Shown: positions 4,964 to 26,392 of the stretch, one piece after another | How the letters are laid out: the number at the start of each line of letters is the position of its first letter | Numbering within the stretch: position 1 is the stretch's first letter | DNA from: Reyranella sp. | GTDB lineage: Bacteria; Pseudomonadota; Alphaproteobacteria; Reyranellales; Reyranellaceae | Direction of reading: 5' to 3' | Length of the DNA: 32,871 nucleotides | Assembly: GCA_017990895.1 (NCBI GenBank) | Contig: JAGNNA010000007.1 | Location: 1 to 32,871, forward strand | Notes under the pieces: generated by a model | Database searches by the model: none | Told to the model about the DNA's origin: nothing | What the model saw: only the letters and a program-made list of their open reading frames with translations | Translations under genes and position numbers: made by a program

Positions 4964-5015
4964 AACACGGCGTCGCGCATCGGTCTCTCTACGGTTTCTG
5001 CACGTCATGAGCGAT

Positions 5016-5030
5016 TGGCACACGGCTTGC
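5016..5030 (+). promoter_or_regulatory. Sigma-54 (RpoN) -24/-12 promoter
   Basis: TGGCAC-ACGGC-TTGC matches the RpoN consensus TGGCAC-N5-TTGC without mismatch. Transcription should start near 5042, and the AAGGAGG Shine-Dalgarno at 5049-5055 with ATG at 5063 follows directly. This rules out a TTG at 5015 as the start of the binding-protein gene. The element places the cyanate operon under a sigma-54 activator, most likely NtrC. Confidence 0.85.
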
Positions 5031-5062
5031 CTCTTGACCCTCCGAGACAAGGAGGCTTCCCG

Positions 5063-6430
5063 ATGTTCAAGGACCCGTTCGACCCGAAGGCCCTGCTCGG
5101 CCGCGGGGGCTGCAGCTGCGGCGGCAACCACGCCCAGGCCGACCATGCCCGCCTGACCGCGGCCGCCGTGCCGTCCGGTGAGGAGGATCGCTGGAACCGG
5201 GTCGTCGACGCCGCCGTGCTGCGCGCGGTTTTCCCGGTCGATGCCCAGCGCCGTCAGTTCCTGAAGACGGTCGGCGCGGCCACCGCGATGGCCGCCATCT
5301 CCTCGGTCCTGCCGCTCGGCGCCGCCCGAGAGGCCTTCGCCCAGGGTGGGGCGCCGGAGAAGAAGGACCTCAAGGTCGGATTCATCCCGATCACCTGCGC
5401 CACGCCGATCATCATGGCCCATCCGATGGGCTTCTATTCCAAGCAAGGGCTCAACGTCGAAGTCGTGAAGACGGCCGGCTGGGCGGTGATCCGCGACAAG
5501 TCGCTGGCCAAGGAATACGACGCCTCGCACATGCTCTCGCCGATGCCGCTCGCGATCTCGCTGGGTGTCGGCTCGAACCCGGTGCCGTGGACCATGCCGG
5601 CGATCGAGAACATCAACGGCCAGGCGATCACGCTCGCGAACAAGCACAAGGACAAGCGCAACCCGAAGGACTGGAAGGGCTTCCGCTTCGCCGTGCCGTT
5701 CGACTATTCGATGCACAACTATCTGCTGCGCTACTACGTGGCGGAGGCGGGCCTCGACCCGGACAAGGACATCTCGATCCGCTCGGTGCCGCCGCCGGAG
5801 ATGGTGGCCAACCTGCGCGCCGACAATATCGACGGCTATCTCGGCCCCGACCCGTTCAACCAGCGCGCCGTGTTCGACGGCATCGGCTTCATCCACCTGC
5901 TGACCAAGGAACTGTGGGACGGCCATCCCTGCTGCGCGTTCACGGTGAGCAAGGAATTCGCCACCCAGAACCCGAATTCTTATCGCGCGCTGCTGAAGGC
6001 GATCATCGATGCCACGGCGTACGCCCACAAGCAGGAGAACCGCAAGGAGATCGCCAAGGCGATCGCGCCGGCCAACTACCTGAACCAGCCGGAGACGGTT
6101 CTCGAGCAGATCCTGACCGGCACCTATGCCGACGGGCTGGGCGGCGTGAAGAAGGATCCCAACCGCATCGACTTCGATCCCTTCCCCTGGAACCAGTTCG
6201 CCATCTGGATCATGACCCAGATGAAGCGCTGGGGTCAGCTCAAGGCCGATGTCGATTACGCCAAGGTCGCGTCCGAGGTCTATCTCGCCACCGACACCGC
6301 GACCATGATGAAGGAGATGGGCCTCATCCCGCCTGACCCGTCGAAGAAGACGATCGTGGTGATGGGCAAACCCTTCGATCCGGCCAAGCCCGACGAATAC
6401 GTGAACAGCTTCGCCATCAAGCGGAGCTAA
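5063..6430 (+). CDS. cynA: NrtA/CynA-type periplasmic binding protein (cyanate/nitrate/bicarbonate family)
   Basis: 455 residues. The start is ATG 5063 after AAGGAGG. The mature domain (about 95-455) has LKVGFIPITCATPIIMAHPMGFY and later VANLRADNIDGYLGPDPFNQRAV and GHPCCAF, the NrtA/CmpA/CynA pattern. Export is probably by the Tat route: RRQFLK at 63-68, an Ala-rich h-region, and a likely cleavage after AFAQ near 94. Before the Tat motif is a long N-region with Cys17, Cys19, His23 and His28 (GCSCGGNHAQADH), an unusual metal-ligand-like cluster. The ligand is inferred as cyanate because cyanase is the last gene of the operon; nitrate or another anion remains possible. Confidence 0.85.
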   Translation: MFKDPFDPKALLGRGGCSCGGNHAQADHARLTAAAVPSGEEDRWNRVVDAAVLRAVFPVDAQRRQFLKTVGAATAMAAISSVLPLGAAREAFAQGGAPEKKDLKVGFIPITCATPIIMAHPMGFYSKQGLNVEVVKTAGWAVIRDKSLAKEYDASHMLSPMPLAISLGVGSNPVPWTMPAIENINGQAITLANKHKDKRNPKDWKGFRFAVPFDYSMHNYLLRYYVAEAGLDPDKDISIRSVPPPEMVANLRADNIDGYLGPDPFNQRAVFDGIGFIHLLTKELWDGHPCCAFTVSKEFATQNPNSYRALLKAIIDATAYAHKQENRKEIAKAIAPANYLNQPETVLEQILTGTYADGLGGVKKDPNRIDFDPFPWNQFAIWIMTQMKRWGQLKADVDYAKVASEVYLATDTATMMKEMGLIPPDPSKKTIVVMGKPFDPAKPDEYVNSFAIKRS

Positions 6431-6452
6431 GATGATGAATCCGTATCAAGTG

Positions 6453-6530
6453 CTGGGGGCGCGTGACTCCAGTCACGCGTCATGCTCGGTAGTCGAAGAA
6501 GATCGCGCCACTGGAGTGGCGCGCCCCCAG
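6453..6530. repeat. REP-like paired-hairpin element, copy 1
   Basis: Inverted arms of 27 bases lie at 6453-6479 and 6504-6530, both with CTGGGGGCGCG at the outer end. Each arm is itself a hairpin: CGCGTGACT-CC-AGTCACGCG on the left and CGCGCCACT-GG-AGTGGCGCG on the right. The left differs from the right at four positions, but in pairs that keep the stem intact. It sits between cynA and cynB; related copies are at 15200 and 20785. Confidence 0.85.
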
Positions 6531-6532
6531 CG

Positions 6533-7378
6533 ATGAAGACCTCGCTGGGCGTCCGGGCGGGCTTGCTGTCGGTGCTGATCTTCGTGGCCATCGTCGGCAT
6601 CTGGCATGTCGCCACCATGCCGGTGGCAGCAACCGGCCCGGCGATGGACCCGGAATATGCCAAGCTGGTGGGCGCCGCAGCGGCCACCGGGTCGAAGTCG
6701 GCGATGCCGACGCCGGCCGACATCGGCGCCACGATCTGGAGGCACCTCGCCGATCCGTTCTACGTGCGCGGCAGCAACGACAAGGGTATCGGCATCCAGC
6801 TCGCCTATTCGCTGGGCCGTGTGCTGCTGGGCTTCGGCCTTGCGGCGCTGGTAGCGATTCCGCTCGGCTTCCTGATCGGCATGTCGCCGCTGGTCTATCG
6901 GGCGCTCGATCCGTTCATCCAGATCCTGAAGCCGGTCTCGCCGCTCGCCTGGATGCCGCTCGCGCTCTACACGATCAAGGACAGCGCCATCTCCTCGATC
7001 TTCGTGATCTTCATCTGCTCGGTCTGGCCGATGCTGATCAACACCGCGTTCGGGGTCGGCAGCGTGCGCCGCGAATGGCTAAACGTGGCGCGCACGCTCG
7101 AGGTCGGCCCCTTCCGCACCGCCTTCAAGGTGATCCTGCCGGCCGCCGCGCCGACCATCATGACCGGCATGCGCATCTCCGTCGGCATCGCCTGGCTGGT
7201 GATCGTGGCGGCCGAGATGCTCGTGGGCGGCACCGGCATCGGCTACTTCGTGTGGAACGAGTGGAACAACCTCTCGATCGCCAACATCGTGACCGCGATC
7301 CTGCTGATCGGCCTGGTCGGTCTCCTGCTCGACCAAGGCCTCGCTTGGCTCGCCAGGCTCGTTACCTATCCGGAGTGA
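6533..7378 (+). CDS. cynB: ABC transporter permease, NrtB/CynB type
   Basis: 281 residues from ATG 6533. Hydrophobic helices start at about 7-25 (LLSVLIFVAIVGIWHVA), and a BPD_transp_1 domain follows from about 90. The cytoplasmic EAA-type loop is seen in the segment EWLNVARTLEVGPFRTAFKVILPAAAPTI, where the ATPase docks. This is the membrane pore of the importer. No Shine-Dalgarno precedes the ATG because the REP-like element ends three bases upstream. A 34-codon frame from 6432 ends at TGA 6534-6536, overlapping the ATG as ATGA, so reinitiation is possible. An ATG at 6482 inside the repeat would give 17 low-complexity residues and is less likely. Confidence 0.88.
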   Translation: MKTSLGVRAGLLSVLIFVAIVGIWHVATMPVAATGPAMDPEYAKLVGAAAATGSKSAMPTPADIGATIWRHLADPFYVRGSNDKGIGIQLAYSLGRVLLGFGLAALVAIPLGFLIGMSPLVYRALDPFIQILKPVSPLAWMPLALYTIKDSAISSIFVIFICSVWPMLINTAFGVGSVRREWLNVARTLEVGPFRTAFKVILPAAAPTIMTGMRISVGIAWLVIVAAEMLVGGTGIGYFVWNEWNNLSIANIVTAILLIGLVGLLLDQGLAWLARLVTYPE

Positions 7379-7382
7379 GGCG

Positions 7383-8285
7383 ATGGAAAACCGTCCCCTC
7401 ATCAGCGTCGAAGGGCTGGGGCGCCGCTTCGGCGAGGGCCAGCCGGCCGTGTTCGAGGATGTCTGGTTCGGCGTCGACAAGGGTGAGTTCTGCTGCCTGA
7501 TCGGCCATTCCGGCTGCGGCAAGACCACGATCCTGAACGTGCTGGCCGGCCTAGACAGTCCGAGCGAGGGCGCCGTCATCGTCGACAATCGCGAGATCGA
7601 CGGGCCGAGCCTCGACCGCGCCGTGATCTTCCAGGGCCATGCGCTGCTGCCGTGGATGACGGTGATGGGCAACATCGCCTTCGCTGTCTCCTCACGCTGG
7701 CCGAGCTGGGATCGCGCCAAAGTCCAGGAGCATGCGCGCAAGTTCATCGCGTTAGTCGGGCTCGCGGGTGCGGAGAACAAGAAGCCGGCGCAGCTCTCCG
7801 GTGGCATGAAGCAGCGTGTCGGCATCGCGCGGGCGCTGTCGATCCAGCCCAAGATGCTCTTGATGGACGAGCCGTTCAGCGCGCTCGATGCGCTGACGCG
7901 CGGCATGCTGCAGGACGAGGTGCTGCGCATCTGCGCCGCCACGCAGCAGACCGTGTTCATGATCACCCACGATGTCGACGAGGCGATCCTGCTCGCCGAC
8001 AAGATCGTGCTGATGACCAACGGGCCGGGCGCCAAGATCGCCGAGATCGTGGTCAACACGATGCCGAAGAACGAGCGGCACCGGAACGACCTGCACCGGC
8101 ATCCGCAATACTACGCGATCCGCAATCACCTCGTGGAGTTCCTGGTCAATCGCTCGAAGGCGTTCGACCAGGAGATCGCCACGCACGGCTACGACTCGCG
8201 GCGCCCGAAGCTGGTGAAACCTGGATTGTCGGCGGTCAATCCGCCGGCCGAGATCGTGCCTTTAACAACCGGGAGACGGCAATGA
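7383..8285 (+). CDS. cynD: ABC transporter ATP-binding protein, NrtC/NrtD/CynD type
   Basis: 300 residues. Walker A is GHSGCGKTT (41-49), the signature is LSGGMKQR (138-145), Walker B MLLMDEP is at 158-164 followed by FSALD, and the switch His196 is in MITHDVDE. The VIFQGHALLPWMTV Q-loop region is typical of the nitrate/sulfonate/taurine ATPase group. A C-terminal extension of about 60 residues after the ATPase core (HPQYYAIRNHLVEFL...) resembles the tail of NrtD-like proteins. It starts four bases after cynB; GGAGTGAGG just before the ATG spans the cynB stop. Its stop overlaps cynS by ATGA. Confidence 0.9.
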   Translation: MENRPLISVEGLGRRFGEGQPAVFEDVWFGVDKGEFCCLIGHSGCGKTTILNVLAGLDSPSEGAVIVDNREIDGPSLDRAVIFQGHALLPWMTVMGNIAFAVSSRWPSWDRAKVQEHARKFIALVGLAGAENKKPAQLSGGMKQRVGIARALSIQPKMLLMDEPFSALDALTRGMLQDEVLRICAATQQTVFMITHDVDEAILLADKIVLMTNGPGAKIAEIVVNTMPKNERHRNDLHRHPQYYAIRNHLVEFLVNRSKAFDQEIATHGYDSRRPKLVKPGLSAVNPPAEIVPLTTGRRQ

Positions 8286-8728
8286 AGCGGGCTGAAGTCA
8301 CAGAGAAGATCCTGACGGCCAAGCGGCTGAAGGAACTCACCTGGGAGGAGATCGCCAAGAAGATCGGCGGCGCCTCGAAGATCATCGTGACCGCGGCCTG
8401 CATGGGCCAGATGAAGATGACCAAGGAGCAGGCCACCAAGGCCGGCAAGCTGTTCGGCTTGGGCAAGGAAGAAGTCCTGCTGCTGCAGGAAGTGCCCTAT
8501 CGCGGCTCGCTGCCCCAGATCCCGCCGACCGATCCGCTGATCTACCGCTTCTACGAGCTGGTGCAGGTCTACGGCACGACCTGGAAGGAGCTGATCCAGG
8601 AGGAATTCGGCGACGGCATCATGAGCGCCATCGACTTCGACATGACCATGGAGCGCCAGCCCGACCAGAAGGGCGACCGGGTGAAGATCGCCATGTCGGG
8701 CAAGTTCCTGGGCTACAAGAGCTACTGA
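8282..8728 (+). CDS. cynS: Cyanate hydratase (cyanase)
   Basis: 148 residues, close to the 147-156 of known cyanases. The enzyme converts cyanate and bicarbonate to ammonia and two CO2 (via carbamate), as a cytoplasmic decamer. The catalytic triad known from E. coli (Arg96, Glu99, Ser122) corresponds to Arg89 and Glu92 in IYRFYEL and Ser115 in DGIMSAIDF. The N-terminal helical domain (KRLKELTWEEIAKKIGG) is also typical. The start overlaps the cynD stop (ATGA), with GGGAGA upstream at 8271-8276. The ammonia made would serve as a nitrogen source, consistent with the sigma-54 promoter. Confidence 0.97.
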   Translation: MKRAEVTEKILTAKRLKELTWEEIAKKIGGASKIIVTAACMGQMKMTKEQATKAGKLFGLGKEEVLLLQEVPYRGSLPQIPPTDPLIYRFYELVQVYGTTWKELIQEEFGDGIMSAIDFDMTMERQPDQKGDRVKIAMSGKFLGYKSY

Positions 8729-8734
8729 TTGGCC

Positions 8735-8766
8735 GGCCGCCGCAAATCTTGTGCGGCGGCCTTTTA
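8735..8766 (+). terminator. Rho-independent terminator of the cyanate operon
   Basis: GGCCGCCGCA (8735-8744) pairs perfectly with TGCGGCGGCC (8752-8761) around a 7-base loop and is followed by TTTTA. It starts six bases after the cynS stop. It separates the cyanate unit from the downstream GntR unit and argues against a gntR start inside this region. Confidence 0.92.
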
Positions 8767-8774
8767 CTGTGCAA

Positions 8775-8788
8775 GATTGTCAACAATC
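8775..8788 (+). promoter_or_regulatory. Candidate GntR operator
   Basis: GATTGT-CA-ACAATC is a perfect 6-2-6 inverted repeat containing ATTGT-NN-ACAAT, the usual shape of FadR/FCD-type GntR operators. It lies 26 bases upstream of the gntR start codon, right after the terminator, so autoregulation of the whole transporter operon is likely. Confidence 0.6.
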
Positions 8789-8814
8789 GACGATCCGGAT
8801 TTCCAGGAGGCTGT

Positions 8815-9549
8815 TTGTCCGTTTCCGATGTCTCGACGCGGGACGTGGGCGCGATTTTCGAGCGCGTGCCGAAGGCGACCCTGCGCGCGCATATCGTCGA
8901 GCGGCTGCGGCTCGCCATCCTGGCGGGTGACATCCCGCCCGGCGCGCCGCTGGTCGAGACGGCGCTGTCGGAGCGCTTTGACGTCAGCCGCGGGCCACTG
9001 CGCGAGGCGTTGCGGCAGCTGATCGAGGAGGGGCTGGTCGTGACCGTGCCCTATACCGGCACGCGCGTCGCCGAGCTCTCGGTCGAGGACGTCCACGAGA
9101 TCTATTCGTTGCGCACGGTGCTGGAGACCTTCGCCTTCGAGCAGGTCTGGCCGCGCCGCGACGACCGCTTCCGCGCCGAACTGAAGCGCCGCAACGACGT
9201 GCTGATCGCCTCGATCGACGCCGGCGACGATCGCGCCAGCATCCTCAATGAGCTCGAGTTCCACGGTCTCGTCTACGAGGCGAGCGGCCACAAGCTGCTG
9301 CAGCGTGCCTGGCACGGCCTGCGCGGCCGGCTGCAGCTCTACTGGGCGGCGCATCACCGCGCGCATGGCCGGCGCGGTCCCAAGCGCGATAGCCACGACA
9401 GCTACATCAAGGCGGCCTTCGGCCCGGACTTCGAGGCGATGAAGGCCGAGATCGCCGATCACATGCGTCGCGGTGTGGAAACGACGGAGAAGTTTCTGCG
9501 CTCGATGCCGGATTTGTCTGGGAAGCCAAAAAGGGGAGCCAATTCATGA
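8815..9549 (+). CDS. GntR family transcriptional regulator, FCD (FadR/VanR) subfamily
   Basis: 244 residues from TTG 8815, chosen because AGGAGG lies at 8805-8810; a GTG at about codon 11 is an alternative. A winged helix-turn-helix at about 22-88 includes LRAHIVERLRLAILAGDIPPG and LSERFDVSRGPLREALRQL, the classic GntR DNA-binding block. The C-terminal FCD ligand domain (about 95-230) has SLRTVLETFAFE, NELEFHGLVYEASGH and a late His-bearing helix, with residues that bind metal and carboxylate ligands in relatives. Its stop overlaps the next gene (ATGA), so it probably senses a substrate of the transporter it precedes. Confidence 0.9.
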   Translation: MSVSDVSTRDVGAIFERVPKATLRAHIVERLRLAILAGDIPPGAPLVETALSERFDVSRGPLREALRQLIEEGLVVTVPYTGTRVAELSVEDVHEIYSLRTVLETFAFEQVWPRRDDRFRAELKRRNDVLIASIDAGDDRASILNELEFHGLVYEASGHKLLQRAWHGLRGRLQLYWAAHHRAHGRRGPKRDSHDSYIKAAFGPDFEAMKAEIADHMRRGVETTEKFLRSMPDLSGKPKRGANS

Positions 9550-10379
9550 CCATCAATCGACGTTCGTTGTTTGCCGTCGCGACCGCGAGTGCCGCGGCGC
9601 TGGCCATTCCCTTCGCCGCGCGTGCGCAGAGCACACTCGACGAGGTGAAGAAGCGCGGCGTGCTGAGGGTCGGCGTCACCCAGGCGCCGCCCTGGTACTC
9701 GAAGGATCCCAAGACCGGCGAATGGTCGACGGGCCTCGGCATCTCCATGGGCAAGGCGATGGCGCAGACCCTGGGCGTGAAGTTCGAGCCGGTCGAGGTG
9801 ACATGGGGCAATGCGATCGCAGCCCTCCAGGGCGACAAGATCGACCTGATGTTCATGCTCGACGCCACCGCCGAGCGCAAGCAGGCCGCCAACTTCCCGG
9901 AGAATCCGCTGCTCTGGTATTCGCTCGCCGTGCTGGCGCGCGACGACCTCGACGCCAAGACCTGGGAAGGGCTGAACAAGCAGGGCGTGCGCATCGCCGT
10001 GCCGCAGGCCTCGACCATGGACCGCTGGGCGACCCAGCACACGCCCAGGGCCGACATCCAGCGCTTCCCCGGCAATGCCGAGGCGATCGCCGCCTTCCAG
10101 TCGGGCCGCGTCGATGCCGTGCTGCTGTTCCATCCGCCGCTGCTCGCCGCCCGCCAGCGGCTGGGCAAGGGCAAGATCGTGGTGCCGCTGCCCGCCGAGT
10201 CGCAGCCGTCGAGCGCGGCGCTGCGCAAGGGCGACGCCGCCTTCACCGAATGGGTCGATAAGCAGTTCGCCGACTACTACAAGAGCGGCCAGACCCAGAA
10301 GTGGTACGAGCAGGCGATCGCCGACTTCGGCCTCGATCCCAAGTCCGCGCCGCCGGTCATGAAAGAGATGATCAAGTAG
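9546..10379 (+). CDS. Family 3 solute-binding protein (polar amino-acid ABC importer type)
   Basis: 277 residues. The N-terminus carries RRSLF (residues 5-9) and an Ala-rich segment ending ARAQ at about 28, a Tat- or Sec-type signal. LDEVKKRGVLRVGVTQAPPW is the family 3 start. The carboxylate-binding Arg is kept as Arg111 in ATAERKQAANF. However, the Asp that usually binds the ligand's amino group in the 'D...D' block near 190-200 is replaced: the sequence there is VDAVLLFHPPLL (Phe195, His196). The ligand may therefore be an unusual or acylated amino acid or a carboxylate, which is inference. Permease and ATPase genes follow. Confidence 0.85.
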   Translation: MTINRRSLFAVATASAAALAIPFAARAQSTLDEVKKRGVLRVGVTQAPPWYSKDPKTGEWSTGLGISMGKAMAQTLGVKFEPVEVTWGNAIAALQGDKIDLMFMLDATAERKQAANFPENPLLWYSLAVLARDDLDAKTWEGLNKQGVRIAVPQASTMDRWATQHTPRADIQRFPGNAEAIAAFQSGRVDAVLLFHPPLLAARQRLGKGKIVVPLPAESQPSSAALRKGDAAFTEWVDKQFADYYKSGQTQKWYEQAIADFGLDPKSAPPVMKEMIK

Positions 10380-10392
10380 GCGGGACAGCTTC

Positions 10393-11073
10393 TTGGCGTA
10401 TCAGTGGGACTTCTCGCCGGTCTTCGCCAACGCACCGTTGTTGGTCGAGGGTCTGGTGAACACGCTCCGGGTCACGGGGACGGCGCTGGTCTGCGGCGTC
10501 GTGCTCGGCCTGGGGCTGGCACTGCTGCGCCTGTCGCCCCGGCGATACCTGTCGTGGCCGGCCGGCTTCGTCATCGAAGTCTTCCGAACGACGCCGCCAC
10601 TGGTCCAGCTCTTCTGGTTCTTCTTCGCCCTGCCGATGCTCGTCGGCATCGAGATGACGCCGTTCATGGCGGGCGCCGTCACCTTCTCGATCCAGTCGGC
10701 CGCATTCTTCGCCGAGGTGTTCCGCGCCGGCATCCAGTCGATCGAGCGTGGACAGTGGGATGGCGCGCGGGCGATCGGCATGCGCCATGACCAGGCGATG
10801 CGTCGCATCATCCTGCCGCAGGCGGTGAAGCGCATGATCCCGGCCTTCATGGAGCGCGCCATCGAGCTCATGAAGACGACGACCCTGATCGCCACCATCT
10901 CCTATGCCGACCTGCTGTTTGCCGCGAACGAGGTCTCGCAGAAGACCTTCCGGCCGCTCGAGACCTACACGGTCGTGGCGCTGATCTATTTCGTCGTGAT
11001 CTTCCTCGCGAGCCAGGTCGCGCGCCTCGTCGAGCTGCGGCTGGCGCGCAGCGGCGAAAGCACAGTGCATTGA
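10393..11073 (+). CDS. ABC transporter permease, HisM/GlnP type (first)
   Basis: 226 residues. The start is TTG at 10393; upstream GGCGGG is a weak Shine-Dalgarno, but the MAYQWDFSPVFANAPLLVEG opening fits the family and no later start would keep the first helix. The HEQRO-type amino-acid permease domain is seen in VNTLRVTGTAL, FRTTPPLVQLFWFFFALP and the EAA loop RAIGMRHDQAMRRIILPQAVKRMIPAF. About five membrane helices are expected. It pairs with the next permease as a heterodimeric pore. Confidence 0.88.
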   Translation: MAYQWDFSPVFANAPLLVEGLVNTLRVTGTALVCGVVLGLGLALLRLSPRRYLSWPAGFVIEVFRTTPPLVQLFWFFFALPMLVGIEMTPFMAGAVTFSIQSAAFFAEVFRAGIQSIERGQWDGARAIGMRHDQAMRRIILPQAVKRMIPAFMERAIELMKTTTLIATISYADLLFAANEVSQKTFRPLETYTVVALIYFVVIFLASQVARLVELRLARSGESTVH

Positions 11074-11086
11074 GCGGGGGACACTG

Positions 11087-11746
11087 ATGCGCTGGGACTT
11101 CGCCTCCGTCCTCGACAATACCGACGCGCTGCTGGTCGGCGCCGCCGGCACCTTGCGCATCTTCGCCATCTGCCTGGTGCTGGGCCTGAGCCTCGGCCTG
11201 CTGGTCGGGCTGGGCCGCTATTCGCGCAATCGCTGGATCCACATCCCGGCCACGATCTTCGTCGAGTTCTTCCGCAACACGCCGGTGCTCGTGCAGATCC
11301 TGTGGTTCTACTTCGCCCTGCCGATCCTGCTGCCCTTCCAGATCTCGCCGCTGGCCGCCGCCTCGCTCGGCATCTCGCTCAACTCGGCGGCCTTCTCGGC
11401 GGAGATCTATCGCGGCGGCATCCAGTCGATCGAGACCGGCCAGTGGGACGGCGCGCGGGCGCTCGGTATGCGTTGGGGGCAGGCGATGCGGCGCATCATC
11501 CTGCTGCAGGCGCTGAAGCGCATGCTGCCGGCCCTCACCAATCGCGCCATCGAGATCTTCAAGATGTCGACGCTGGCCTCGGCCGTGGCCTATGTCGAGC
11601 TGCTGCAGCAGGGCAAGCTGATCGCCTCGCTCAACTACAATCCGATCGAGGCCTATACCGCCGTCGCGCTGATCTTCTTCGTCTTCCTGTGGCCGCTGGT
11701 CCAGTTCAGCTACTTCCTCGAACGTCGGCTGAAGAGGGACGAATGA
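11087..11746 (+). CDS. ABC transporter permease, HisQ/GlnP type (second)
   Basis: 219 residues, ATG 11087 with a GGGGGA ribosome site. It parallels its neighbour: MRWDFASVLDNTDALLVGAAG, FFRNTPVLVQILWFYFALPIL and the EAA loop RALGMRWGQAMRRIILLQALKRMLPAL. This is the second membrane subunit of the importer, apparently from duplication of the first. The stop codon overlaps the ATPase start (ATGA 11743-11746). Confidence 0.88.
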   Translation: MRWDFASVLDNTDALLVGAAGTLRIFAICLVLGLSLGLLVGLGRYSRNRWIHIPATIFVEFFRNTPVLVQILWFYFALPILLPFQISPLAAASLGISLNSAAFSAEIYRGGIQSIETGQWDGARALGMRWGQAMRRIILLQALKRMLPALTNRAIEIFKMSTLASAVAYVELLQQGKLIASLNYNPIEAYTAVALIFFVFLWPLVQFSYFLERRLKRDE

Positions 11747-12510
11747 CGATCCTCCACGTCACCGGCCTCACCAAGCGCTTCGGCGCGACCGACGTGCTGC
11801 GCGGCATCGAGCTCGACGTGAAGCGTGGCGAGCGCATCGCGATCCTCGGTGCCTCGGGCTCGGGCAAGAGCACCTTGCTCCGTTGCCTCAACTTCATGGA
11901 GCGCCCGGGCGGCGGCACGATCGCGCTCGACGGCCAGGTGCTGGGCCGCGAGGGCAAGGCCGGCGAGCGGATCTATCGCGAAAGCGAGCTGATTCAGGTG
12001 CGCCAGCGGGTCGGCATGGTGTTCCAGCAGTTCAATCTCTTCCCGCACATGACCGCGATAGGCAACGTGATGGAAGGGCTGCGCACCGTGCGCGGCATGG
12101 CCAAGCCCGAGGCCGAGGCACGAGCCCGCAAGGAGCTGGCGCGGGTCGGGCTCGCCGAGAAGGCGGACACATATCCGGCGCATCTGTCGGGCGGCCAGAA
12201 GCAGCGGGTCGCCATCGCCCGCGCGCTCGCGATGGACCCGGAGATGCTGCTGTTCGACGAGCCGACCTCGGCGCTGGATCCCGAACTGGTCGGCGAAGTG
12301 CTGAACGTCATCCTCGCGCTCGCCGAGGAAGGCCGCACCATGATGCTGGTCACGCACGAGCTGGGCTTCGCCTACCACGTCGCGACGCGAATCATATTCC
12401 TGGCCGACGGCGCCATCCACGAGCAGGGCACGCCGGACGAGGTCCTCAAGAACCCGAAGAAGGACCGCACCCGCGCCTTCCTCGCCAGCCACAAGCAATT
12501 CAGCTTCTAG
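11743..12510 (+). CDS. Polar amino-acid ABC transporter ATP-binding protein
   Basis: 255 residues, starting at ATG 11743. Walker A is GASGSGKST, the Q-loop region is VFQQFNLFPHMTAIGNV, the signature is LSGGQKQR, and Walker B is MLLFDEPTSALDPE with the switch His in LVTHELGFA. This is the GlnQ/HisP class: short, without a regulatory domain. An insertion before the Q-loop (LGREGKAGERIYRESELIQV) is typical of the HisP subgroup. It energises the two preceding permeases. Confidence 0.92.
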   Translation: MTILHVTGLTKRFGATDVLRGIELDVKRGERIAILGASGSGKSTLLRCLNFMERPGGGTIALDGQVLGREGKAGERIYRESELIQVRQRVGMVFQQFNLFPHMTAIGNVMEGLRTVRGMAKPEAEARARKELARVGLAEKADTYPAHLSGGQKQRVAIARALAMDPEMLLFDEPTSALDPELVGEVLNVILALAEEGRTMMLVTHELGFAYHVATRIIFLADGAIHEQGTPDEVLKNPKKDRTRAFLASHKQFSF

Positions 12511-12520
12511 GGAAAATGCC

Positions 12521-13435
12521 ATGACGACGGAACAGGCGAGCGCCCAGGCCTATCTGGCCGATGCGCGCAACGATCAGGTGCTGGTCTATGTGAACGGCGC
12601 CTTCGCGCCGCGCAACGAGGCCAATGTCTCGGTGTTTGATTCCGGCTTCGTGCTGGGCGACGGCGTGTGGGAAGGGCTGCGTCTCGTGAAGGGCCGGCTG
12701 ATCAGCCTCGATGCGCACCTCGACCGCCTGTTCGAGGGCGCGCGCTCGATCGATCTCGATATCGGGCTCGACCGTGCCGGCGTCACCAAGGTCGTGACCG
12801 ATACGCTGGCGAAGAACGGCATGACCGACGGCGCCCACATCCGCCTCATGATCACGCGTGGCCTGAAGAAGACGCCCAACCAGGATCCGCGCTTCGTGAT
12901 CGGCAAGGCCACGATCGTCTGCGTCGCCGAATACAAGACGCCGGTCCCCGAGGCCAAGGCCAAGGGCTACTCGCTCTTCACCTCGACCTTCCGCACGACT
13001 AATCCCGACCAGTTCGACCTGCGCCTCAATTCGCACTCGCGACTGAACCTGATCCAGGCCCTGATTCAGGCTATCAAGGCCGGTGCCGACGAGGCGCTGA
13101 TGCTCGACCCGCGCGGCTTCGTGGCCTCGTGCAACTCGACCAACTTCTTCATCGTTCGCGGACGCGAACTGTGGACGTCCACGAGTCTGTACAGCTTCAA
13201 GGGCATCACCCAGCAGAACGTGATCGATGCCTGGCGCGCCGCGGGCAACGTGGCGAAGGAATGTGACTTCACCCTGGCGCAGGTCTACTCGGCCGACGAG
13301 GCCTTCGTGACCGGCACCCTGGGCGGCGTCACCCCGGTGACGAAGGTCGACGGCCGCTTCATCGCCGACGGTAAGGCGGGCCAGGTCACGAAGGAAGCCA
13401 GCGATCTCTATCTGAAGTCGGTCGGGGCGCTGTAA
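12521..13435 (+). CDS. Class IV aminotransferase-fold protein lacking the PLP lysine
   Basis: 304 residues. The class IV fold is clear: VNGAFAPRNEANVSVFDSGF, GDGVWEGLRLVKGRL, GADEALMLDPRGFV and FKGITQQNVIDAW follow the BCAT/D-amino-acid transaminase order. The Schiff-base lysine is missing: alignment back from GADEA puts Leu169/Asn170 (RLNSHSRLN) at the lysine position. The conserved Glu of the next motif is Ser203 (VASCNSTNFF). Two other class IV enzymes in this window keep both residues (Lys158/Glu192 and Lys207/Glu243). Lys227 in the GIT motif is extra. It is either a non-PLP enzyme, a PLP protein with a displaced lysine, or a regulatory relic. It ends the transporter operon. Confidence 0.8.
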   Translation: MTTEQASAQAYLADARNDQVLVYVNGAFAPRNEANVSVFDSGFVLGDGVWEGLRLVKGRLISLDAHLDRLFEGARSIDLDIGLDRAGVTKVVTDTLAKNGMTDGAHIRLMITRGLKKTPNQDPRFVIGKATIVCVAEYKTPVPEAKAKGYSLFTSTFRTTNPDQFDLRLNSHSRLNLIQALIQAIKAGADEALMLDPRGFVASCNSTNFFIVRGRELWTSTSLYSFKGITQQNVIDAWRAAGNVAKECDFTLAQVYSADEAFVTGTLGGVTPVTKVDGRFIADGKAGQVTKEASDLYLKSVGAL

Positions 13436-13438
13436 GGG

Positions 13439-13535
13439 AAAGGTCCCTCGCTGACGCTCGGGATGACAATTGTGCGCTGGCGCAAGGCGTGCGCCCCAAC
13501 AACGTTGTCATCCCGAGCGTCAGCGAGGGACCTTT
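13439..13535. repeat. 97-base perfect inverted repeat between convergent genes
   Basis: Arms of 31 bases (13439-13469 and 13505-13535) are exact reverse complements; they begin AAAGGTCCCTCGCTGACGCT. The 35-base spacer holds a second hairpin GGCGCA-AGGCG-TGCGCC. The element starts three bases after the aminotransferase-like stop and its right arm includes two bases of the hyuB stop. It probably ends transcription of both convergent operons, though no T-run is present. Elements with a similar core are, as I recall, dispersed in some alphaproteobacterial genomes. Confidence 0.9.
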
Positions 13536-15198
13536 ACTCCGCCGCCATCTTCCGCGCGTTGCGTGGATCGCGGGTGAGCAGCCCGTCGGCCAGGTCGCGC
13601 TCGATCATCGCGTCGGGGCGTTCGACGACGCGGCCGAAGCCGGCGCCGCCGCCTACGAACATCTCGACGATGTCGCCCTTGCCGAGATCGAGGGCGGCCT
13701 TGCTCTTCAGGTCCTCGACGGTGCCATCGGCGCGGAAGACGCGGCAGTAACCGCGCTGGCCGGGCTCGCCGCCCAGAAGGCCCTCGGGCGCGAGACGGAA
13801 GCGGTCGGAGTAGATGGCGAGCTGGACGTCGTCGTGCAGGATCTCGCAGCGTCGCGTGAAGCCCGCGCCGCCGCGCCGGGCGCCCAGGCCGAACGAATCG
13901 GGCGCCAGTTCGTAGCCGACGATGCGGAAGAAGCTGTAGTCGATGTCGAGCGATTCGACCGGTGCGTTGGAGCAGTTGCTGAGCGGCGAATCGACGGCAT
14001 CGCAGCCGTCGGCATCACGCGAGGCGCCGTAGCCGCCGCCGAAGATTTCGAGATAGACGCTGTAACCCTTCTCGCCCAGATGGGAGAGGCAGAAGGCCGT
14101 CGTGCAGTCGAAGCCGGTGGCGATCACCTTGTCGGGCAGCGCCTGGGCCATCGCCTTCATCACCGCGTTGAAGACGCGATAGGCCGGGATCATGCGTGCG
14201 CGCACCGGCGCCGGCGGTCGCGGATTGAGCAGCGAACCGTAGGGCACCTTGATGGTGATCGGCCGCGCCATGCCCTCGTTGTAGGGAATGTCGGGACTGG
14301 TCAGCACCGACTTCACGCAGGAGAGTGCGGCCGACAGCGTGCTGGAATAGGGGCAGTTGAGGTTGCGCTTCACCTGGGCGCAGGTGCCTTCGAAATCGAT
14401 CTCGACCGAATCGTCGGCGATGGTGACCCTGGCCTTCACCACCAGCGGATCGTCGGTCAGCCCGTCGTCGTCGACCGCATCCTCGCCGTAGAAGGTGCCC
14501 TTGGGAGCCTGGGCGATGGCGGCGCGCACGCGGCGCTCGGAATAGTCCTGCATCTCGCGCATCGCCGCCTCGACCTTGTCGGTGCCGTAGCGCTCGCAGA
14601 GCTGCTTCACCCGCATCGCACCGATGGCATTGGCGGCGAACTGCGCGTTGAAGTCGCCGATGGTGAGGTCGGGCACGCGCACGTTGGCGGTCACGAGGCG
14701 CTCGAACGAACCACCGTTCCAGTCCTGCTCGAAACTGTAGCGCGAGGGCGGGAAGCGCAGCCCTTCCTGGTAGACGTCGGAGGCATGGATGTTGAGGCCG
14801 GGCGCGCCGCCGCCCAAGTCGAGATGATGCGCCACCGAGGCGCCGAAGCCCACGACGCGGCTGCCCACGAAGATCGGCGTGAAGATGAAGACGTCGGGGA
14901 TGTGCTGGCCGCCCTCGAACGGGTCGTTGTTGATGAGGAAGTCGCCTTCCTTCAGCGTCTCGACGGGATGGCGCCTCAGGCAGGCGCGCAGGGTCTCGCC
15001 GATGGGGCCGAGCTGCATGGGGATCAGCTCGGCCTGCGCCACCGTGTTGCCGTCGCGGTCCATCAGGCCCGCCGAGCCGTCGCGCGCCTCGCGCAGGATG
15101 GTCGAGTAGGCGGAGCGGATCAGCTTCACGCCCATCTCGCGGGCGGCGGCGATCAGTGCCTGGCTGATGACGGCATAGTCGATCGGGTTCATGCTCAT
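13534..15198 (-). CDS. hyuB: N-methylhydantoinase B / 5-oxoprolinase-type subunit HyuB
   Basis: 554 residues, normal for HyuB. Family blocks are seen: FLINNDPFEGGQHIPDVFIF near 88-107, GASVAHHLDLGG, GLRFPPSRYSFEQDW, and the C-terminal glycine-rich MFVGGGAGFG. With HyuA it should form an ATP-dependent amidohydrolase opening cyclic imides or lactams (hydantoins, 5-oxoproline, or related carboxylation substrates); the exact substrate is unknown. The start is ATG 15198 (a second ATG is two codons on). No Shine-Dalgarno precedes it, because a REP-like element ends one base upstream. It lies downstream of hyuA and converges on the transporter operon. Confidence 0.9.
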   Translation of the reverse strand: MSMNPIDYAVISQALIAAAREMGVKLIRSAYSTILREARDGSAGLMDRDGNTVAQAELIPMQLGPIGETLRACLRRHPVETLKEGDFLINNDPFEGGQHIPDVFIFTPIFVGSRVVGFGASVAHHLDLGGGAPGLNIHASDVYQEGLRFPPSRYSFEQDWNGGSFERLVTANVRVPDLTIGDFNAQFAANAIGAMRVKQLCERYGTDKVEAAMREMQDYSERRVRAAIAQAPKGTFYGEDAVDDDGLTDDPLVVKARVTIADDSVEIDFEGTCAQVKRNLNCPYSSTLSAALSCVKSVLTSPDIPYNEGMARPITIKVPYGSLLNPRPPAPVRARMIPAYRVFNAVMKAMAQALPDKVIATGFDCTTAFCLSHLGEKGYSVYLEIFGGGYGASRDADGCDAVDSPLSNCSNAPVESLDIDYSFFRIVGYELAPDSFGLGARRGGAGFTRRCEILHDDVQLAIYSDRFRLAPEGLLGGEPGQRGYCRVFRADGTVEDLKSKAALDLGKGDIVEMFVGGGAGFGRVVERPDAMIERDLADGLLTRDPRNARKMAAE

Positions 15199-15199
15199 T

Positions 15200-15259
15200 G
15201 GAGCGCGCCACTCCAGTGGCGCTCAAGGATCATGATGCGCCACTGGAGTGGCGCGCTCC
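15200..15259. repeat. REP-like paired-hairpin element, copy 2
   Basis: Two 23-base arms (15200-15222 and 15237-15259) are perfect inverted copies beginning GGAGCGCGCCACTCC. Each forms its own hairpin GCGCCACT-CC-AGTGGCGC (or its complement). The 14-base spacer contains GGATCATGAT. It fills the hyuA-hyuB gap inside an operon. Confidence 0.9.
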
Positions 15260-15265
15260 GATGAA

Positions 15266-17281
15266 TCATGACGTCCTCCGCAGGGTCAGATTGTCCGCCG
15301 TGTCGAGCCCGGCCGTCCAGCCGGGCGGCACCCAGGTCGTGGCGGTGTAGCCCTCGATGACGGCGGGGCCCGTGATCTCCTGTCCCGCGGCCAGCGCTTC
15401 GACAGTATAACGGTCGCAGTCGAGCCAGGCCTCGCCGTGGAAGATCTTCGCCTGCTCGGGCGCGCGGGCCGCGAGCGTCTCGCGGTCGAGCTTCGGCGCG
15501 CCGCCGATCGGCAGAGTGGCGCCGACCCGCAGGGTCACGATCTCGACGGGACGGTCGAGGTTGGCGCCGTGCATGAAGGTGCGGTGATGGGCGTCGGCGA
15601 ACAGGCCGGCGAGAGAGGCCGCATCGAGCGTATCGAGGCGGTCGGCCGGAATCTCGACGCCGACTTCGAAGGCCTGGCCGACGAAGCGCATGTCGAGCGT
15701 GTGGATGTACTCGAGCGTGCCGGGCAGCTTCATCCCGGCGAACTGCGCGGCCAGCCTGTCCCGCATCTCGGCGAAGATCCGGCCGGCCTCGCGGGCCGCG
15801 CCGTCGTCGAGCTTCATCTTGCGCGTGACGGCATCGAACTTGGTGTAGTCTGAGACAACCAGCCCGTAGGCCGAGATCACACCGGCGTTGGGTGGAACGA
15901 CGATGGTCGAGATGCCGAGCTCTTCGGCAATGCGCGCGGCATGCAGCGGACCCGCGCCGCCGAACGGCACCAGCGCGTAGTCGCGCGGATCGCGTCCGCG
16001 TTCGGTCGAGACCAGCTGGATGGCGCGCACGATGTTGGCATCGGCGAGCTGCAGCGCCGAGGAGGCGGCCTGCTCGACACTCAAGGCAAAGCGCTCGGCC
16101 AGCGGCTCGAAGGCGCGACGGGCCGCCTCGCCGTCGAGCTGCATGCGTCCGCCCAGTAACGCGCCGGGGCGGATCGTGCCGATCACGATATGCGCATCGG
16201 TGGTCGCCGGTTCGGTGCCGCCGCGGCCGTAGCAGGCGGGGCCGGGATCGGCGCCGGCGCTCTGCGGGCCGACCCGCAGCATGCCGCCATCGTCCACCCA
16301 GGCGATGGAGCCGCCGCCGGCGCCCACCGAGACGATGTCGAGCACCGGCGTGCGGATCGGCAGCCCGTCGATCTCCGTCTCGGCCGCGAGCGAGGGCCGG
16401 CCGTCCTGCACCAGGCAGACGTCGGTCGAGGTGCCGCCCATGTCGAAGGTGATGAGGTCCCTGAATCCGGAGCGGGCGGCTTGGCGCGTGGCGCCGACGA
16501 CGCCGGCCGCGGGACCGGAATAGAGTGCGGTGATGGCGCTCTGGCGCATCGCCTCGGCGGGAAGGCGTCCGCCGTTGGACTGCATCACCGTAAAGCGGCC
16601 CTTGAAGCCTGCGTCCGCCAGCTTGCCCTCGAAGCGATGCAGGTAGCCGTCGATCACTGGCTGCACATAGGCGGATAGAAGCGTCGTCGAGGCGCGTTCA
16701 AATTCGCGGAACTCGCGCGCCACCTGATGGCTGCACGTCACGAGCACGCCGGGCAGCGCCTCGGCGATCAGTGCCGCGAGTCGCTTCTCATGCACGGGAT
16801 CGGCATAGGCGTTCAGCAGGCAGATCGCGACCGCATGATAGCCGCCGTCCTTCAGGGCGGGCAGCAGCTCGGCCTTCACCTTCGCTTCGTCGAGCGGCGT
16901 CTCGACGGAACCGTCCGCGCGCAGCCGCTCGACCGCCTCGAAGCAATCCTTGCGGCGCACCGGTGGCGCGGGCTTCGCATAGAAGAGGTCGTAGATGTTG
17001 CGCCGGTCGTGGCGCTGCATGAACAGAAGGTCGCGGAAGCCCGCCGTCGCGACGAAGGCCACGGTCGCGCCCTTGCGTTCCAATACGGCATTGGTGGCGA
17101 CGGTCGAGCCGTGGCCGAGATCCTCGATGCGTGCGAGATCGATGCCCGATGCGATGAGCGCGGCGAAGGCGCCGACATCGGGCGACTTCGGGGTGCTCGG
17201 CACCTTGGTGACGACCAGGCGACCGCCTTCGACGGCGACCAGGTCGGTGAAAGTTCCCCCAACCTCGACGCCGACGCGCAT
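15266..17281 (-). CDS. hyuA: N-methylhydantoinase A / 5-oxoprolinase-type subunit HyuA
   Basis: 671 residues, normal for HyuA. The N-terminal ATPase-fold motif is GVEVGGTFTDLV (4-15), and the second phosphate motif is in TFDMGGTSTDVCLV, followed by VSVGAGGGSIAWVD and GPACYGRGG, all hallmarks of the hydantoinase A/oxoprolinase family. The protein is cytoplasmic and works with HyuB. The ATG at 17281 is preceded by GGGAACG and lies 12 bases after the ubiK stop. Substrate cannot be assigned; a link to the nearby amino-acid transporter is inference. Confidence 0.92.
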   Translation of the reverse strand: MRVGVEVGGTFTDLVAVEGGRLVVTKVPSTPKSPDVGAFAALIASGIDLARIEDLGHGSTVATNAVLERKGATVAFVATAGFRDLLFMQRHDRRNIYDLFYAKPAPPVRRKDCFEAVERLRADGSVETPLDEAKVKAELLPALKDGGYHAVAICLLNAYADPVHEKRLAALIAEALPGVLVTCSHQVAREFREFERASTTLLSAYVQPVIDGYLHRFEGKLADAGFKGRFTVMQSNGGRLPAEAMRQSAITALYSGPAAGVVGATRQAARSGFRDLITFDMGGTSTDVCLVQDGRPSLAAETEIDGLPIRTPVLDIVSVGAGGGSIAWVDDGGMLRVGPQSAGADPGPACYGRGGTEPATTDAHIVIGTIRPGALLGGRMQLDGEAARRAFEPLAERFALSVEQAASSALQLADANIVRAIQLVSTERGRDPRDYALVPFGGAGPLHAARIAEELGISTIVVPPNAGVISAYGLVVSDYTKFDAVTRKMKLDDGAAREAGRIFAEMRDRLAAQFAGMKLPGTLEYIHTLDMRFVGQAFEVGVEIPADRLDTLDAASLAGLFADAHHRTFMHGANLDRPVEIVTLRVGATLPIGGAPKLDRETLAARAPEQAKIFHGEAWLDCDRYTVEALAAGQEITGPAVIEGYTATTWVPPGWTAGLDTADNLTLRRTS

Positions 17282-20853: not shown

Positions 20854-21960
20854 TTAGAAAACCTTGTGGATCCAGCCGTGCGGATCGGCCGTGCGGCCGC
20901 GCTGGATGCCGACGAGGGCGGCCTTCAGTTCCTCGGTCTTCGCGCCCGAGCCGCCATTGCCGATCCTGAACTCGCCTTGCTTGCTGCGCACGGTGCCGAT
21001 CGGCGTGACGACCGCGGCGGTGCCGCAGGCGAAGGCTTCGCGCAGGCGGCCGCTGGCGGCATCCTTGCGCCACTGCTCGATCGAATAACGCTCCTCGCTC
21101 ACCTTGATGCCCTTGTCCCTGGCGAGCGTCAGCAGCGAGCTGCGCGTGATGCCGGGCAGGATCGTGCCGCCGAGCGGCGGGGTGATCATCGAGCCGTCGT
21201 CGAACACGAAGAAGATGTTCATGCCGCCCAGCTCCTCGATCCAGCGCTGTTCGACGGCATCGAGGAAAACGACCTGGTCGCAGCCATGGCGCGTCGCCTC
21301 GGCCTGCGCCTGCAGGCTGGCCGCATAGTTGCCGCCGCATTTGGCGGCGCCGGTGCCGCCGGGGGCGGCACGGGTGAAATCCTCGGAGACCCAGACGGAC
21401 ACCGCCGGTGCATCGGTCTTGAAGTAGGCGCCGACCGACGAGGCGATGACGATGAAGAGGTAATCCGACGAGGGCTTCACGCCGAGGAAGATCTCATTGG
21501 CAAACATGAAGGGCCGGAGGTAGAGGCTGCCGTCGCCCTCCGGGATCCACGCCCGGTCGATCTTGACCAGCTGGTCGACCGCCTCGAGGAACACGTCCTC
21601 CGGCAGGGCCGGCATGGCGAGCCGCTCGGCCGACTGCTGGAAGCGGCGGGCATTCTCCAGCGGGCGGAACAGCGTCGCGCCGCCGTCGGCGGTGCGATAG
21701 GCCTTCAGCCCCTCGAAGATCTCCTGGGCGTAGTGCAGCACGGCGGCTGCCGGATCCATCGGGATCGGCGCGCGCGGCTCGACCCTCGCATCGTGCCAGC
21801 CCTGGGACTCGTGATAGCGGATGGTGACCATGTGGTCGGAGAAGACGCGGCCGAATCCCGGATTCTTGAGCAGCGCCGCGCGTTGATCGGCGGGAAGCGG
21901 CGACGGGTGCGGAACGTGCGTGAACTGAAGCGACGGTGTCTTGGACATTGCCTTGGACAT
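20854..21960 (-). CDS. ilvE: Branched-chain amino-acid aminotransferase, type II
   Basis: 368 residues from ATG 21960 (an ATG four codons later, at 21948, is an alternative; CAAGG precedes it). The size and blocks LHYAQEIFEGLKAYR, SLYLRPFMFANEIFLGV and LPGITRSSLL identify the long BCAT type. The PLP lysine is Lys207 in AAKCGGNYAASL and the conserved acid is Glu243 (IEELGGMNIFFV). It interconverts Leu/Ile/Val and their 2-oxo acids. It follows the histidine-kinase gene after 64 bases on the same strand and may belong to that operon. Confidence 0.93.
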   Translation of the reverse strand: MSKAMSKTPSLQFTHVPHPSPLPADQRAALLKNPGFGRVFSDHMVTIRYHESQGWHDARVEPRAPIPMDPAAAVLHYAQEIFEGLKAYRTADGGATLFRPLENARRFQQSAERLAMPALPEDVFLEAVDQLVKIDRAWIPEGDGSLYLRPFMFANEIFLGVKPSSDYLFIVIASSVGAYFKTDAPAVSVWVSEDFTRAAPGGTGAAKCGGNYAASLQAQAEATRHGCDQVVFLDAVEQRWIEELGGMNIFFVFDDGSMITPPLGGTILPGITRSSLLTLARDKGIKVSEERYSIEQWRKDAASGRLREAFACGTAAVVTPIGTVRSKQGEFRIGNGGSGAKTEELKAALVGIQRGRTADPHGWIHKVF

Positions 21961-22024
21961 TTCTCTCTTGAGTATTTCTTTCAATCTATCACAGGCGGCT
22001 CTGCCGCAAGTCCCCCGCCGCCGC

Positions 22025-23376
<1,352 letters not shown>

Positions 23377-25393: not shown

Positions 25394-25459
25394 GACCAAT
25401 AGTTGTTCTGTGGATGCCTGCAGAGACCCATTTGGAATCAATCGAGAGAGGATATCGCA

Positions 25460-26392
25460 ATGTCCTTAACTATGGATGACCGGGACGGTGTGATCTGGCT
25501 GGACGGCAAGCTGGTGCCATGGCGCGAGAGCCGCATGCACGTGCTCACGCATGCGCTCCACTACGGCTCGGCCGTCTTCGAAGGCGAGCGAATCTATGAC
25601 GGCCGCGTCTTCCGCCTGTCGGCGCACAGCGCCCGCCTGATCCGATCGGCCAACCTGCTCGACTACGCGCTGCCCTGGTCGCGCGAGGAGATCGACGAGG
25701 CGACCCGCGCCGTCGTCAAGGCAAACGAACTCACCGCCGGCTACATCCGCCCGATCGCCTGGCGGGGCTCGGAGGTGCTGGGCGTGTCGGCGATCGGCAC
25801 GACGGTCCATCTTGCCATCGCCCCGTGGGTGCAGGAAGGCCGACTGTCGGTGCAGGCGCGCGATGCCGGCATCAACGTGACCATGGCGAAGTACCGCCGT
25901 CCCTCGCCCGAGACGGCGCCCGGCCACGCCAAGGTGGCCGGGCTCTACGTGATCTGCGGCATCGAGAAGGACCGCGCGCTGAAGGCCGGCTTCGACGATG
26001 CGCTGATGCTCGACTGGCAGGGCCGCATCGCGGAAACGACCGGCGCCAACATCTTCCTGGTGATCGACGGCAGGCTGGTCACCCCGACGCCGCACAATTT
26101 CCTCGACGGGATCACGCGCCGTGCGGTGATGGGCATGGCGCGGGCGCGCGGCTGGACGGTCGAGGAGCGCGACGTGATGCCGGAAGAACTAGGCAACGCG
26201 AGCGAGGTCTTCCTCTGCGGCAGTGCCGCCGAGATCGTGCCGGTCGGCTCGATCGACCAGCACCATTTCCAGGCGGGTCCCGTCGCCAAGACCCTGATGG
26301 CCGACTTCCAGAAGCTGGTGCGCGCGCCCGACAGCGAAGGCTTCGGCGAGTCGACGCACTTGATGGTGCCGGCCTCGTCGCTGGCCGCCTGA
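25460..26392 (+). CDS. Branched-chain amino-acid aminotransferase, type I
   Basis: 310 residues from ATG 25460 with AGAGGA upstream. Class IV blocks: HVLTHALHYGSAVFEGERIY, YIRPIAWRGSE and FLDGITRRAVM. The PLP lysine is Lys158 (GHAKVAGLYV) and the conserved acid Glu192 (IAETTGANIFLV), so it should be active. It is the IlvE-size enzyme; with the type II enzyme at 20854 the window has two BCATs. It may instead prefer another amino acid. It is under a promoter with tandem operators and is not part of the petP unit. Confidence 0.92.
   Translation: MSLTMDDRDGVIWLDGKLVPWRESRMHVLTHALHYGSAVFEGERIYDGRVFRLSAHSARLIRSANLLDYALPWSREEIDEATRAVVKANELTAGYIRPIAWRGSEVLGVSAIGTTVHLAIAPWVQEGRLSVQARDAGINVTMAKYRRPSPETAPGHAKVAGLYVICGIEKDRALKAGFDDALMLDWQGRIAETTGANIFLVIDGRLVTPTPHNFLDGITRRAVMGMARARGWTVEERDVMPEELGNASEVFLCGSAAEIVPVGSIDQHHFQAGPVAKTLMADFQKLVRAPDSEGFGESTHLMVPASSLAA

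Follow-up and report, generated by a model that had tools for sequence, protein, structure and literature searches.

A conserved branch of the class IV aminotransferase fold without the Schiff-base lysine, encoded after an amino-acid-type ABC importer in Reyranella

The window, by which we mean the whole analysed stretch of 32,871 nucleotides of Reyranella sp. DNA, contains an operon on the + strand in which genes for a GntR regulator, an SBP_bac_3 protein, two permeases and an ATPase are followed by a gene for a protein of the class IV aminotransferase type that lacks the catalytic lysine. The first gene (8749..9549) encodes a regulator of the GntR/FCD family (Pfam GntR and FCD) and is read from a TTG at 8749, and the true start may be downstream. 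The second (9546..10379) encodes a periplasmic solute-binding protein of the amino-acid type (Pfam SBP_bac_3, E = 5e-18), which among solved sequences is closest to the reconstructed ancestor AncCDT-1 (E = 6e-36); a cyclohexadienyl dehydratase ancestor as closest relative leaves the ligand unfixed. Permease 1 (10393..11073) is of the amino-acid HEQRo type (NCBIfam TIGR01726, above cut-off) and is followed by permease 2 (11087..11746). The amino-acid-type ATPase (11743..12510) begins at residue 148 of the open reading frame 11302-12510, where its domain starts, the N-terminal extension being spurious. The gaps between these genes amount to a few bases, and 10 bases separate the end of the ATPase from the lysine-less gene (12521..13435), which has 304 codons without a stop and encodes 304 amino acids.

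This protein matches the Pfam profile Aminotran_4 (PF01063) over positions 1-223 of 223 (E = 2e-42). Its AlphaFold model, computed with 73 aligned members (mean pLDDT 92.6, with lower values of 76-80 in the segment 161-180 around Asn170), lies 1.1-1.2 Å from the solved structure 7z79 and 1.4-2.0 Å from BCATs and D-amino-acid transaminase, with a TM score of about 0.9 to the BCATs. Profile and model together indicate a complete class IV fold, in agreement with the initial annotation, while the geometry of the pocket is what we infer from homology. In NCBIfam, all 19 matches of the protein remained under their curated cut-offs (the best model scored 237 bits vs 363 required), and none of the BCAT, D-amino-acid transaminase and aminodeoxychorismate lyase equivalogs reached its cut-off.

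The phmmer alignment with the archaeal BCATs 5mqz and 5cm0, which is ungapped around the site, places their Schiff-base lysine ('IKSLN') opposite Asn170 (13028..13030, +) and their pyridine-nitrogen glutamate ('SEGSG') opposite Ser203 (13127..13129, +). The initial annotation had named Leu169/Asn170 and Ser203 as the replacing residues; Asn170 and Ser203 stand, but Leu169 corresponds to the isoleucine just before the lysine and thus lies one position off. The best PDB matches, 7z79 and 9j32 (65-66% identity), point to the same residue: 7z79 (2022) is titled as an aminotransferase-like protein of Variovorax paradoxus, its N174 is Asn170 of the window protein (constant offset of 4), and 9j32 (2025), its mutant N174K, differs from it there only. 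The depositors of 7z79 were therefore already aware of the missing lysine and restored it. The motifs at the lysine and glutamate sites of the window protein are LNSHSRLN and SCNSTN, and both motifs of the 7z79-type lysine-less family, NSHS[RK]LN and Ser/Thr-x-Asn, are present. The window encodes two more class IV proteins, an IlvE type II protein (20854-22305, -) and a BCAT (25403-26392, +), and each retains both the lysine and the glutamate. The loss, proposed earlier as specific to one gene, is indeed so among the three class IV proteins of the window, but beyond it defines a large family.

Genome contigs, plasmids and whole genomes were searched for homologues of the protein with an E-value cut-off of 1e-50, at which divergent members may be missed. 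Among 156 distinct fetched proteins, the window's own not counted, 151 carry Asn at the lysine position. These 151 homologues (39-97% identity) all have Asn170 together with Ser or Thr at 203, so that the substitutions for which a homologue search had been recommended are conserved throughout. The other five belong to class IV but not to this family: four come from the genome of the window, and the fifth is L210 (38% identity). One of the four is the BCAT at 25403-26392, whose lysine is present and lies 1-2 columns off in the homologue alignment. Close homologues bearing the lysine, named beforehand as the finding that would speak against its loss, were searched for, and none occurs at 39% identity or above, L210 being the first.

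In the 82 aligned members, Arg69, His106, Arg108, Arg113, Asn170, Ser173, Asn205, Thr230, Thr264 and Gly265 are invariant (82/82). Position 203 is Ser in 42/82 and Thr in 40/82, with Thr in subgroups C and D described below. Mean identity is 94% across nine positions in the lysine site, the glutamate site and the phosphate cup vs 69% overall (permutation p = 0.0003, 82 aligned members), and dN/dS values of 0.04-0.20 among the Reyranella-type orthologues indicate strong purifying selection. Lysine-less members with the same residues and intact frames come from more than 20 bacterial families. A decaying pseudogene or a sequencing artefact, for which nothing speaks except the missing residues themselves, is ruled out by this breadth of conservation and by dN/dS values far below 1; the earlier argument against simple decay, drawn from the open frame, thus holds. 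The family alignment also contains an N-terminal D-x-R-N motif (residues 14-17), in which Asp14 and Asn17 are invariant.

The lysine of a transaminase both holds PLP and moves the proton, and hence ordinary transamination is very unlikely for a protein without it; no internal aldimine can form, so the protein does not qualify as a conventional transaminase. A class IV transaminase of the ordinary kind that uses another lysine would escape this conclusion, and three candidates were considered. Lys227 (13199..13201, +), suggested in the initial annotation as a displaced substitute, is Lys in 17/82 members only and cannot be a general replacement. Lys116, in the loop after 'TRG', is better conserved (Lys in 78/82) but is Arg in the remaining 4/82. 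Position 174 (13040..13042, +; Lys+4) is Arg in 43/82 and Lys in 39/82; most members of subgroups C and D have the lysine, which might serve there, but the position is Arg throughout A and B, including the window protein. Since, moreover, both the alignment and the depositors' N174K mutant put Asn170 at the site, we regard such an enzyme as highly improbable.

What remains of the PLP site is its phosphate cup. Arg69 (12725..12727), Thr230 of 'GIT' (13208..13210) and Thr266 of 'TGT' (13316..13318), all on the + strand, are present in the window protein, with roles assigned by homology to R61/T223/T260 of DestiTA. This Desulfomonile tiedjei transaminase, also of fold type IV, contacts PLP through K158, E194 and Y162, the last of which (Lys+4) touches O3', and the phosphate through R61/T223/T260 (PMC12429042). 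Position 266 is Thr in 79/82 members and Ser in 3/82. The preserved cup might hold PLP or PMP non-covalently, with Ser/Thr203 facing the pyridine nitrogen in the manner of fold type II enzymes, a reading that overlaps with the main one given below. Lysine-less PLP enzymes exist in other folds, for example the dehydratase ColD with His for Lys, and a D-amino-acid transaminase in which Asn replaces the lysine has reportedly been studied and partial reactions seen; the change of Lys to Asn alone need not abolish PLP binding. The E177S mutant of D-amino-acid transaminase (1g2w), with Ser for the same Glu, is termed a PLP enzyme in its title. Against this, all three ring contacts of the D. tiedjei enzyme (Lys, Glu and Tyr) have become Asn, Ser/Thr and Arg/Lys, and PLP goes unmentioned in the titles of 7z79 and 9j32, so we consider a non-covalent PLP or PMP enzyme unlikely. 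The cup might also persist for structural reasons alone.

In a quick tree, the lysine-less proteins form one side of a branch apart from the lysine-bearing class IV proteins (SH-aLRT 98), with an uncertain root owing to the quick tree version and the long outgroup branches. According to the motif at 203-208 and residue 174, four subgroups can be distinguished: A (SCNSTN, Arg), B (SCNATN, Arg), C (T.N..H, usually Lys) and D (TTN.CN, Lys). Subgroup A, to which the window protein belongs, is one clade (SH-aLRT 95), as are B (85) and D (100, including its TTNGCN member), and C is paraphyletic to D. The lysine-less protein was found in 45 of the 385 sampled genomes of the class, after exclusion of a 46th match (G104) that is the lysine-bearing L210. 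Sampling covered one phylum, and gene calls in unannotated loci were mechanical. The lysine of this fold was apparently lost once, and the resulting protein then spread to many Alphaproteobacteria as well as to some Beta- and Gammaproteobacteria.

The importer is a regular companion of subgroup A. A solute-binding protein and both permeases lie nearby on the same strand in 67 of the 72 subgroup-A loci with enough flank, in Reyranella, Azospirillum, rhizobia, Paracoccus, Comamonadaceae and others, and almost never in subgroups B, C and D. A relative of the GntR/FCD regulator occurs on the same strand within 5 kb in 18/18 Reyranella-type and 44/54 other subgroup-A loci. The place after an ABC importer, from which a role in handling the imported compound had been proposed, is therefore a property of subgroup A, but does not extend to the other three, which are tied to a sulfotransferase instead.

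Several further neighbours were recorded. Upstream in the window, 5015-8728 encodes an NMT1-type binding protein, a permease and an ATPase, followed by cyanase; cyanase and the nitrate-type transporter were rejected as general partners, cyanase being found near 9/18 Reyranella-type loci and 0 others. Downstream, 13534-17281 (-) encodes a hydantoinase B/A pair with a weak likeness to caprolactamase subunits; its presence in 13/18 Reyranella-type vs 1/54 other loci marks genus synteny, and a pathway partnership was likewise rejected. A divergent ClcB-like ClC transporter lies directly 3' of the lysine-less gene in 15/95 subgroup-A members (e.g., L116 9931-11715, L117 9941-11662 and L120 9903-11663), and in it the usual GREGP motif appears to read GMEAG. 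An operon for a halogenated amino acid, proposed from this neighbour alone, found nothing further in its favour and was dropped. In one Hyphomicrobiales MAG, a GRDB/PrdB-like protein (D-proline reductase type) follows the ClC gene (L093 12812-13756). Extra operon genes of the ProC-like, aconitase X (cis-3-hydroxyproline dehydratase-like) and pyrroline-2-carboxylate reductase-like kinds occur at L116 4975-5811, L117 11676-12509, L120 11676-12476, L066 681-1934 and L123 8066-9004; a ProC-like reductase is present in about 6 subgroup-A operons and aconitase X near 3 members. The ClC, ProC-like and aconitase X neighbours suggest cyclic-imine or proline-like chemistry, and are too patchy to bear a claim.

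The gene usually found beside the lysine-less gene in subgroups B, C and D encodes a Sulfotransfer_5 (PF19798) match about 240 residues long, present nearby in 9/11 members of B, 22/25 of C and 10/20 of D (41/56 together) vs 1/95 of A. Several subgroup-D members adjoin other importers rather than Sulfotransfer_5. Across genomes the association is close: a strong Sulfotransfer_5 match was found in 33/385 genomes, 32 of which also encode the lysine-less protein, and in 32/37 of the non-A carrier genomes vs 1/348 of the remaining genomes (Fisher p of about 3e-40 over 385 genomes, uncorrected for phylogeny and hence a description, not a strict probability, since genomes are not independent). In five genomes (G116, G154, G228, G268 and G414) both proteins are present and encoded far apart or on different contigs. 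The lone exception, G128, is an assembly 87% complete in which only lysine-bearing class IV proteins were found. Sulfotransfer_5 occurred in none of the 14 control genomes and not in the genome of the window, so the window protein has no such partner, unlike subgroups B, C and D.

The model of the Sulfotransfer_5 partner predicts a sulfotransferase fold, and its closest structural matches are TPST and the sulfotransferase domains of CurM and olefin synthase (Z of 13-14). In the partner proteins (L189 8863-9603 and those of 21 other loci, alignment A2) the motif WSGPRN.ST is invariant and IR.P.....SY is conserved, and we take both to resemble PAPS-binding loops. A function for the pair of Sulfotransfer_5 and lysine-less proteins was not found in our literature search. 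In plants, a sulfotransferase-like domain may be fused to a class IV domain.

Such tight pairings could mean that the protein is a pseudoenzyme, which binds or regulates without catalysis and either senses the imported amino acid or controls the transporter (the sulfotransferase in the other subgroups). The loss of the catalytic Lys and Glu, the close operon with the importer in subgroup A and the near-obligate pairing with Sulfotransfer_5 elsewhere are consistent with this. However, a site released from chemistry would be expected to relax, and here the residues in place of Lys and Glu never vary or vary only between Ser and Thr, while His106, Arg108, Ser173 and Asn205 are the same in 82/82. 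It is also one fold that serves two distinct partner systems, importer and sulfotransferase, and two different partners make a role of its own in small-molecule pathways more likely than a mere subunit role. We therefore hold a purely binding or regulatory function to be possible but somewhat unlikely.

The reading that we prefer, with a probability of roughly 0.5, is that the lysine-less proteins are a monophyletic offshoot of the aminotransferases of class IV (PLP fold type IV), and that the window protein, a functional member of this offshoot, is not a transaminase and processes a ligand without an internal aldimine. We infer from the sites described a loss of aldimine chemistry, a ligand with phosphate or sulfate and a catalytic rather than purely binding role. 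The protein retains the phosphate-gripping pocket of PLP enzymes, ringed by a new conserved polar set (Asn170, Ser173, Asn205, His106, Arg108, Arg/Lys174 and Ser/Thr203), and it is the retained cup in combination with the newly invariant polar residues that argues for a phosphate or sulfate group on the ligand. Most likely, the pocket binds an amino-acid-derived ligand through such a group, which could belong to PLP or PMP held non-covalently or be the substrate's own phosphate or sulfate ester, and the protein would then act on this ligand with no Schiff-base lysine involved. This action would take place downstream of the amino-acid-type ABC importer in the window, and together with a PAPS-type sulfotransferase in most other branches.

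A more specific version, which overlaps with the preferred non-aldimine reading and which we consider a long shot, assumes that Sulfotransfer_5 sulfonates a hydroxyl of an amino-acid-like substrate. With the sulfate bound in what was once the phosphate cup for PLP, the lysine-less protein would carry out a PLP-independent step such as elimination of sulfate that yields an enamine or imine. Subgroup A would have its substrate imported ready-made, and the imine reductases of some operons (ProC-like, ornithine-cyclodeaminase-like) would follow. If true, a PLP enzyme fold would have been turned to PLP-free sulfate-ester chemistry.

Overall, a fold defined by its vitamin B6-binding lysine persists without that lysine as a conserved protein that probably does a different job, and the database label 'aminotransferase class IV' is probably wrong as a function for these genes. 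For one relative, the PDB entry 7z79 already documents the loss itself. What is new here is how large the family is and that it is monophyletic, its division into four subgroups, the importer operon of subgroup A and the Sulfotransfer_5 link, for none of which a description was found in our literature search. The near-obligate link of three subgroups to a sulfotransferase is a concrete biochemical lead not given by structure alone.

Of the known systems, the Variovorax protein 7z79 is the closest, sharing the fold, Asn for Lys and the LNSHSRLN and SCNSTN motifs with the window protein, although its locus is arranged in a different order (ATPase, lysine-less gene, solute-binding protein, permeases, GntR). 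No paper giving a function for 7z79 or 9j32 was found in the literature search, from whose reach most subscription journals were excluded. The class IV BCATs 5mqz, 5cm0 and 5e25 are similar over the full length (about 36% identity, fold within 1.4-1.7 Å) and have the phosphate-cup motifs in common with the window protein, but keep the Lys and Glu, both of which it lacks. D-amino-acid transaminase (1daa) and its mutant 1g2w have the same fold, and E177S reproduces one of the two substitutions, but this enzyme has the catalytic lysine and performs ordinary transamination. In comparison with the D. tiedjei transaminase, the counterparts by motif position of K158, E194 and Y162 are Asn, Ser/Thr and Arg/Lys, whereas those of R61, T223 and T260 are kept.
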